NCBI RefSeq assembly: GCF_905475395.1
Contig: NC_058342.1
Coordinates: 467,001-531,000, forward strand
From: Chrysoperla carnea
Lineage: Eukaryota > Arthropoda > Insecta > Neuroptera > Chrysopidae
Direction: 5' to 3'
DNA: 64,000 nt
Shown here: in pieces, positions 23,000 to 24,683 of the stretch
How positions within the stretch are numbered: position 1 is the stretch's first letter
Layout: each line of letters opens with the position of its first letter
Program-made: the position numbers and the translations under genes
Notes under the pieces: model-generated
What the model was told of the DNA's origin: nothing
The model's database searches: none
Seen by the model: the letters and a program-made list of their open reading frames with translations, nothing else

Positions 23000-23272
23000 T
23001 TTCAAATAATAATGTTTTTACAAAAAAACACACAATTTTAAAAATTATATTCGACAATTTGATACTACAAAGTCAAACGTTTAAATAAATGTGTTGTATT
23101 TATATTTATATGAAATTTCAAAATTTTTGTTGTCATATCCTATTGGACAGCTATCAGAGTATGGACTAATCAAATTGTATAGGCGTGGCTTAAAAAATCT
23201 TTAATGCTTTATATAAAAAGGCACAATTGTATCGGCGCTCATATAAAAAGGCACAATTGTACCGGCGCTCAC
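23000..23272. promoter_or_regulatory. H3-H4 divergent promoter with duplicated H4 core
   Basis: Region upstream of H3 (-). On the plus strand lie two perfect-length 30-bp tandem units, 23211-23240 and 23241-23270, each running from ATATAAAAAGG to CGGCGCTC and differing by one base. Each has a TATA box and, about 30 bp later, the initiator-like GCTCA. The motif CGGCGCTCAC is the same as in the leader of H4 at 15807-15798, so this is the H4 promoter; the H4 gene itself is replaced by LINE copy 3 starting at 23273. Confidence 0.75.
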
Positions 23273-24683
23273 CGTTCTCTGAACACCGTTTAGTGCACAT
23301 CTATTATGATAAAAAGTGAAGTGATTATTTTTATTTTTACAAGTGTTAAAATTAAAATCAGTGTTTATAAATACTATTTTTAGTATTTTTGAAAATTCAT
23401 AAGAGTAACTTATTTTTAAAAATTATTTACTGTTTGTTTATAATTTTTATTTTTAATAAGAGTAAAAGATTCACCACTTATAACAATAGTTAAAGTGCAC
23501 AAAGAATAAAAACAAATTATCGTCCAGATGTACGAAGACGGTAGCCTCCCTGGTGGGAGTGCTTCCACGTCGCCAGATTGGCAACACGTTGAAAAAAGTA
23601 ACAAAAACACAACAAAAAACAACAAAGAAACTCCAAAAACACGAACATATTCGAACACAAGAAGAGACCAAGAGACCACGTTCTGGTTCCAAGAGACCAC
23701 GTCCTTCTACACCTGAAGAAATTGTTCTTCAAAACAAATTCGCGGCGCTATTGTCCGACGACGACGAAAATGATGACCAATTTCCAAAATTACCGCAAGG
23801 TAAGTATGGTCAAATCATAACCAACAAACCAACATCAAACAACACAACAGCATCAACATCAAACAACTCATCAAAGGAAAAAAAGGCTCCCAAGCCTCCT
23901 CCGATAATTTTACATCGTACGGTTCCCAAACCAAAAAAATTTGCTGAATTAATCAAACAATTCTGCCCGGATGGTTTTTACCTTAAAAATGTGGGATCAA
24001 CAACTCAAATACATACGTACTCAAACACAGATTACGTAAATATCAAAAACCAGCTGATTAACGAAAACTACCATTTCACACGTATGCTATCAAAAGTGAA
24101 AAACCTTTTTCATGTGTACTACACGGACTTTACAACGCATCTACTGAAGAAATCAAAGAAGAACTCGAAGAATTAAATGTTCCATCCACAAATGTGTTTA
24201 AAATGAACATCAAAAATCAAAACAGACACCTATACAAAGTTGATTTTCCATCAACAACATCGTATCAACAAATTCCACGAATCAACACACATTTATCAAC
24301 AAAAATTTATTGGGCCAAATACCAAAGAGGTAGCGGCCCAACACAGTGCTTCCATTGTGAAGCTTTCGGGCATAGTGCTTCGAATAGTTTCTTAAAACCG
24401 AAATGCGTAAAGTGTTTAGGAGAACATGAAACCAAAGAGAGTACAAAAGACGCCCAAACAACACCCAAATGTATCAACTGTCAGGGTGATCATCCAGCCA
24501 ACTTCAGAAAATGTCCAACGTACATAGGATACTTAAAAAAATTAGAAGAGCGTCGCATGAAAAATGCTACACCAAGATTCATACCTGCGTTTAATTTAAC
24601 GTATGGGCTCAACGATCCGCCCAACGAGAAGAAAATCAAAACCATTCAGTTGCAAAAACATCCAATATTGGGTGGTGACGCCA
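23273..24683 (+). mobile_element. Jockey-type LINE, copy 3, left part
   Basis: Same family as copy 1. It begins CGTTCTCTGAACACCG immediately after CCGGCGCTCAC of the H4 promoter. 5' UTR to 23527, then ORF1. At 24683 (after CCAATATTGGGT) the LINE is broken by a BEL/Pao retrotransposon and resumes at about 31414 (AAACCCACAACAGCC). Copy 1 reads through this point without the insert, at about 2950-2970. Confidence 0.85.
23528..24683 (+). pseudogene. LINE ORF1, copy 3 (two frameshifts)
   Basis: Begins MYEDGSLPGGSASTSPDWQ at 23528, changes frame around 23600-23700, runs on in 23553-24176, and changes again before 24194. The knuckle region reads CFHCEAFGHSASNS and CVKCLGEHETKES: the last Cys of each is replaced by Ser, so both are disabled. 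CINCQGDHPANFRKC is intact. The C-terminus is separated by the BEL/Pao insertion; its end is at about 31420-31616. Confidence 0.82.

Follow-up and report, generated by a model that had tools for sequence, protein, structure and literature searches.

A LINE family at the start sites of histone genes in Chrysoperla carnea, with evidence for targeting of cap sites and probable capture of host promoters

Site-specific LINEs are already known from rRNA, tRNA and snRNA genes, microsatellites, telomeres and transposons, the targets named in passages of PMC5035012. A literature search covering sources other than subscription journals and Repbase found no report of a LINE specific for the starts of histone genes or of other protein-coding genes, so a LINE that targets such starts is provisionally regarded as new. 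Among described systems R1 and R2 are close. Like family A, the LINE family analyzed here, they occupy one base position of a tandem multicopy gene, lie in sense orientation and rely on the redundancy of the host gene. Their target is 28S rRNA, whereas that of family A is the start of Pol II protein-coding genes, namely three histone genes, and its flanks are histone promoters and leaders rather than the 28S rRNA site at which R1 and R2 lie. R2 is described in PMC8789037 as transcribed only within pre-rRNA; family A, in contrast, lies at the +1 position of a normal promoter. In Dictyostelium, TRE5-A is, like family A, an APE-type element that has two ORFs and takes its insertion position from a promoter. 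According to passages of PMC5911963 its ORF1 protein binds TBP, Brf1 and Bdp1, and its insertions are found some 44-54 bp upstream of tRNA genes, oriented the opposite way. Family A differs in lying at the Pol II start site, in the same direction as the gene.

Jockey-type LINEs of insects, which include HeT-A and TART, have an ORF1 with CCHC knuckles, an APE endonuclease and a reverse transcriptase (RT), and no RNase H. Family A may resemble them in this domain make-up, and some Jockey-type members are also site-restricted. Those known to be so use telomeres, unlike family A with its histone caps. Placement of family A in the Jockey clade is offered as a lead only.

The window, that is, the whole 64-kb stretch analyzed here, corresponds to C6:467001-531000 of the host's own 559-Mb assembly, which was the genome searched. 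An earlier note on this DNA had proposed two independent insertions of one LINE family at histone cap sites, reflecting site preference and promoter use. Rereading of the sequence bore out its placement of LINE copy 3, whose 5' end is CGTTCTCTGAACACCG at 23273, immediately behind CCGGCGCTCAC; this first base lies 2 bases past A 23271, which is taken as the +1 of an H4 promoter. The assignment to H4 was also right: in genome copies (L016-L030) the same promoter leads into ATGACTGGCAGAGGAAAAGG, which is the frame of H4. It faces away from H3, as had been said, the divergent gene at 22589..22999 (minus strand) being a core histone (Pfam, E 1.3e-28) that starts MARTKQTA. The H4 core promoter (23211..23271, plus strand), recognized with TRF and by its identity with promoters of intact H4 genes, consists of two tandem 30-bp copies, with two TATA boxes, running from the TATA box to CGGCGCTC. 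This duplication, which the earlier note does not mention, ends exactly at the insertion point of copy 3 and is absent at the four remaining 5'-complete H4 copies. Duplication of the target, 5' extension of the RNA with the source promoter, and template switching are candidate explanations.

Copy 3 is itself interrupted. Its 5' part (23273..24672, plus strand), with the 5' UTR and the ORF1 region, matches copy 1, the family A copy at H2B in the same window, at 86.8% over 1412 columns. A later insertion of BEL/Pao type (24673..31415, plus strand; Peptidase_A17 2.8e-49, DUF1759 4.5e-25, DUF5641 2.6e-32; boundaries from sequence comparison) splits it from its continuation (31416..32008, plus strand), which holds the end of ORF1 and the start of ORF2 and matches copy 1 at 95.8% over 593 bp. 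Homology stops at 32008, adjoining 28S rRNA sequence, and no 3' end is present; no H4 coding sequence was found downstream of copy 3 within the 64-kb window. An element that encodes an RT and carries (TTA)n stretches is present at 41271-60035, next to 28S rRNA, in four copies arranged much like a tandem.

Copy 1 (838..4298, minus strand), delimited by sequence comparison, has an internal deletion in the RT and no recognizable 3' end. Its 5' end at 4298 falls at the point in the H2B promoter that matches the place of copy 3 in H4. Alignment of this occupied promoter (4299..4420, minus strand) to an empty site shows that additional bases, CTCGCTCATT, separate the LINE from the target CGCTC. The empty site lies in the H2A/H2B intergenic region at 13736..14044 (plus strand), where a near-identical promoter runs uninterrupted through the target CACGCTC^ATACAT, the A being at 13989. 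The adjacent H2B copy (14045-14416) has an in-frame stop, its ORF ending at 14323, and looks by eye like an array-edge pseudogene. Segments 4309-6196 and 12033-13988 form an inverted duplication of an H2A unit, 91-97% alike in pieces, that encloses another LINE with an RT and a weak RNase H match.

The third LINE in the window, copy 2 (15808..19774, minus strand), belongs to a sister family, B, and is 66.5-69.9% similar to copies 1 and 3. It has lost its 5' end; endonuclease and RT domains were found in a domain search. Diverged by 30%, it still ends in a 3' tail, AATTTGAATTTGAATTTT, that adjoins an H4 cap, directly before CGGCGCTCACATAC of the H4 leader. That leader (CGGCGCTCACATAC...), the same as in intact H4 genes, and its H4 gene occupy 15289..15807 (minus strand), the coding sequence being broken by a short, unrelated insert. 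This split H4 copy (15289-15722) again has the look of an array-edge pseudogene, as judged by eye.

That the H2B and H4 promoters have little in common but a short motif proved correct: their best local alignment scores 16, the median of shuffled sequences also being 16, and the alignment of the two leaders that the earlier note had asked for scores 16 against 15 in shuffled sequence. The string CGCTCA is not rare (14 occurrences in the window against 13.3 expected), so the weight of the targeting claim comes from the genome census and not from the motif.

The census used the 5' 500 bp of a young copy as query, and all 12 first-look candidates were scored; more diverged copies may be missed, and two of the 14 output rows were short inverted matches inside copies already counted. 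Twelve loci (L001-L012) have a complete 5' end. As judged from upstream flanks and gene probes, five are at the H4 cap site (L001, L004, L005, L006, L007), five at that of H2B (L002, L009, L010, L011, L012) and one at that of H3 (L008); among the 12 no copy was found at H2A. The remaining locus (L003, also L035) follows TATAAATCGTCGCAATCATCAACCTTGCC in promoter-like sequence, 29 bp past the TATA box of a non-histone promoter; TATAAATCGTCGCAATCATCAACCTTGCC occurs twice genome-wide at up to 3 mismatches. Site preference is thus substantiated on the scale of the genome, with 11 of 12 five-prime-complete copies at H4, H2B or H3 caps. Chance placement was rejected by a hand calculation in which the H4 caps (759 x 5 nt) make up about 7e-6 of the genome, yet hold 5 of these 12 copies. 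The figure of 759 is the number of places genome-wide that match an intact H4 24-mer with up to 2 mismatches (the reversed-pattern control gave 0); it approximates the number of H4 caps, nearly all of them empty, and may include the 3' sides of some occupied sites. Reading of nine array stretches showed every one of 8 H4 sites to be empty, and 7 of the 8 H2B sites as well. With nearly all sites empty, the element is rare relative to the sites open to it.

A second search, with 451 bp of the 3' region, gave 20 matches, all of which were scored; 11 were copies from the 5' census. Two others are 5'-truncated copies with target duplications, one of 85 bp at H4 (L052) and one of 213 bp at H2B (L053). 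Since copies this short lie at H4 and H2B, targeting is independent of the 5' end of the LINE. One match (L059) is a family B copy at H4. A 5'-truncated family A copy on C1 lies away from histone sites, and neither a target duplication nor a TATA box was found in 221 bp of sequence surrounding that 5' terminus. For the copy at C6:13929893 the 3' flank alone was read, the 5' end not having been located, and this flank is non-histone. The rest are three 69% relics without a readable junction and one short match on C4. In all, 16 family A copies have at least one readable junction, and 13 of them are at histone caps (H4 6, H2B 6, H3 1). Targeting may not be strict, one 5'-complete copy lying at the other TATA promoter and two further copies elsewhere.

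How precisely are the copies placed? Comparison with empty sites gave target duplications in 7/7 copies, of 12 bp (L033, L036, L038, L039), 13 bp (L042), 14 bp (L037) and 16 bp (L041), these lengths being maxima because tail and target have letters in common. In these seven H4 and H2B copies the shared target stretch ends between CGC^TCA and CGCTCAT^, within 2 bp of CGCTC^A; it starts with TAC in six and is two bases longer in L037. The duplications ATTTATTTCGC in L040 (at H3) and AACCTTGCC(AC) in L035 were identified by eye. The copies at H4, H2B and H3 are all in sense with the host gene and join it no more than about 2 bp from the base that precedes the inferred +1 A. From the TATA box to the cap A there are 29 or 31 bp in H4, 34 bp in H2B, 25 or 31 bp in H3 and 29 bp at L035; in three array stretches TATAWA occurs at that distance by chance in 3.9% of cases, and the promoters compared number four, one of them non-histone. 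The side of the presumed first nick varies with the target: TAC.. in H4 and H2B, ATTT.. in H3 and AACC.. at L035. The motif CGCTCA(C)ATACAT, which the earlier note saw as shared by the insertions, stands for H4 and H2B, but the feature recognized is wider, as the H3 promoter with TTTCGC^ATTT and the unrelated TATA promoter with CTTGCC^AC are also used, at the corresponding place.

At the other end of the junction, the LINE begins exactly with CGTTC in 10/12 copies, preceded by variable extra bases between target and CGTTC, which are ATT in 6/12 and others in the rest. The retention of CGTTC and of ATT at these frequencies implies that the RNA starts upstream of CGTTC, at the junction; the extra bases at many 5' junctions make its exact first base uncertain. 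The 3' tail consists of GATTTT repeats; the element is a LINE without LTRs, and 5' truncation is seen (L052, L053). Independence of the two insertions in the window is upheld by their different promoters, junctions and 5' extra bases, and truncated copies have breakpoints of their own.

The element is about 4.65 kb long, with an ORF1 of 444 and an ORF2 of 882 amino acids. Both ORFs are open in five of the nine full-length copies examined (L033, L037, L038, L039, L042), and one or both are broken in the other four. In L037, ORF2 matches RVT_1 (2.4e-43, Pfam) and, at its N-terminus (residues 6-198), the APE-type endonuclease family Exo_endo_phos (5.1e-09); its best solved relatives are LINE-1 ORF2p (4.7e-22) and R2 (8.4e-19). 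The domain search gave no RNase_H match in the 882 residues of ORF2, the endonuclease had no match among solved structures at E 1, and the sole match in NCBIfam, to a group II intron RT, was distant and fell below cut-off. RT searches yielded 6 pattern matches in viral contigs and 100 in genome contigs, of which none was confirmed. ORF1 has CCHC knuckles by eye, its Pfam matches being below cut-off (zf-CCHC 0.064, PRE_C2HC 0.16).

Six young copies are mutually 98.6-99.9% alike, and L038 (H4) and L042 (H2B), on different contigs, show zero differences in either ORF. The H4 copy L036 and the H3 copy L040 are 96.1% alike, as are copy 1 (H2B) and L035 at the other promoter. These identities between copies in different genes show that single lineages moved from one gene to another. 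Among young copies that differ, pN/pS is 0.07-0.18 for ORF2 and 0.10-0.27 for ORF1, comparisons of ORF1 with L040 being left out since an indel misaligned them. We regard family A as a recently active APE-type LINE, inserted in sense, that targets histone cap sites.

Sister family B appears, from its flanks, to be looser in its targeting. All eight candidates found were scored, and there were seven 3' ends, of which three join H4 (window copy 2, L059 and L066) and four do not. Where family B tails join H4 they do so at CGG, 4 bases closer to the cap than family A. L065 is joined to the leader of another gene family, RGG-rich, and the flank of L067 was not assigned to a histone. L064 (C5) and L068 (C2) have one common non-histone 3' flank, GAAGCCAAAAATCACTCTTTGT, which could be either a second repeated target or a shared duplication; a TATA-plus-motif pattern made for it had at least 465 matches, those listed lying within C1, and was uninformative. 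The gene family met at L065 (also L013:1481-1900 and L015:1481-1900) encodes MDGENEN... and an RGG-rich C-terminus in several exons, and its promoter is H3-type, divergent to H4.

A further relative, elem5S (L032:3232-7930), is an apparently intact LINE with open frames of 481 and 889 codons. It resembles family A in ORF2 (33.6% over 888 aligned columns) and ORF1 (30% over 350), has a similar repeat tail and occurs in the same histone/5S units. Unlike family A, it lies inside the 5S rRNA gene and not at a Pol II cap, with the junction GTTCTCGTCC^GATCACC and the target duplication GTTCTCGTCC. Array units measure about 6.45 and 11.16 kb, and elem5S accounts for the long ones in the stretches read. 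The idea that family A is carried by the ~11.16-kb units was dropped, as the stretches read hold the 5S-inserted LINE instead. Within the window, 19822-21295 is a 70.5% relative, beside 5S at 22032.

We consider it very probable that a two-ORF APE-type LINE retrotransposes into the start site of replication-dependent histone genes and captures the promoter of its host. Targeting of the cap sites can be read from the copies themselves, which are joined in sense at about the base that precedes the inferred +1 A, at H4, at H2B and in a single case at H3, with duplications of ~12-16 bp. On the upstream side of the element the TATA box is retained, 29-34 bp from the insertion point; the histone coding sequence, now downstream of the element, is cut off from this box. 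Promoter use, the other half of the earlier proposal, we infer from position: given the sense orientation, the insertion at +1, the kept TATA box and the constant 5' ends, the histone promoter likely transcribes the LINE from its first base. Pol II on the histone TATA box would start the LINE RNA at or next to that base, giving a complete RNA with no upstream promoter of the LINE's own, presumably in S phase. ORF2 would then place a bottom-strand nick 8-15 bp upstream of the cap and prime on it from the GATTTT tail, and a cut of the top strand at the cap would yield a full-length copy once more under a histone promoter. Histone genes are present in hundreds of copies, and this redundancy would allow the host to bear the damage, much as that of rDNA does in the case of R1 and R2.

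What does the element recognize? It is close to an even call that the ORF2 endonuclease simply reads a short motif (about YGCYC^A plus the upstream strand), the transcription machinery being uninvolved. Sequence reading of this kind is the accepted view for R1, R2 and comparable site-specific LINEs, and CGCTC^A is common to H4 and H2B, as GC..^A is to H3 (TTTCGC^A) and L035 (CTTGCC^A). However, CGCTCA is common, occurring in the window about as often as expected, whereas histone caps hold 11 of the 12 copies, and the first-nick side changes from target to target while the TATA distance is kept, although a longer degenerate motif is possible. A tentative alternative is that the Pol II initiation site itself is read, the nick being guided by TBP/TFIID or the open start site and not by a DNA motif. 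Such a reading of the promoter is favored by the H3 and L035 sites, which differ in sequence yet have a TATA distance like that of H4 and H2B; four promoters are too few for this comparison, and recognition of a degenerate motif, for example GC(Y)C^A, may also account for it. It seems unlikely that the RNA comes from an internal initiator with a downstream element, the histone sites being a tolerated or open-chromatin haven. The element does start CGTTCAGTG.. with two TTCAGT strings that resemble the arthropod initiator, TCAGT, and the 5S-inserted and other relatives need transcription too. But a start at TTCAGT would lose the first bases in each cycle, whereas CGTTC and ATT are kept as described, and insertion is at one base, the same in truncated copies, rather than across open chromatin.

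Could the pattern have arisen without repeated insertion? One old insertion might have spread with the histone unit by unequal exchange and gene conversion, as tandem arrays and the inverted duplication in the H2A-H2B region of the window might suggest, but we think this very improbable: H4, H2B and H3 have unrelated promoters, and the copies have different 5' extra bases, truncation points and separate target duplications, while identical elements are found at H4 and H2B. The counter-case that the earlier note itself had named, one segmental duplication including the promoter, is excluded for H4 versus H2B versus H3, where genes, promoters and junctions all differ; some copies in the same gene could be duplicates of one another. 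Mis-joining of LINE and histone sequences in the assembly is scarcely credible. Arrays are difficult to assemble and several copies are on small contigs (C7, C17, C152, C174), but seven copies have both ends and target duplications, several of them on the 38.6-Mb C6, and their junctions differ.

The presence of several copies that look intact, of hundreds of unoccupied sites and of a 5S relative in the same arrays should make the system readily testable, and a LINE able to insert itself beneath a known Pol II promoter may be of use in targeted insertion. How LINEs keep their 5' ends without an upstream promoter and how they choose their sites are long-standing questions; here they would be one problem, since the insertion point is the transcription start. 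If the capture of histone promoters works by reading of the Pol II initiation site, every full-length copy would be born with its first base at an S-phase histone +1, which would explain how the 5' end is kept without an upstream promoter. Family A would then correspond, on the Pol II side, to TRE5-A and Ty3, and the relatives it has in the arrays would have changed targets between the 5S gene (Pol III) and the histone genes (Pol II).
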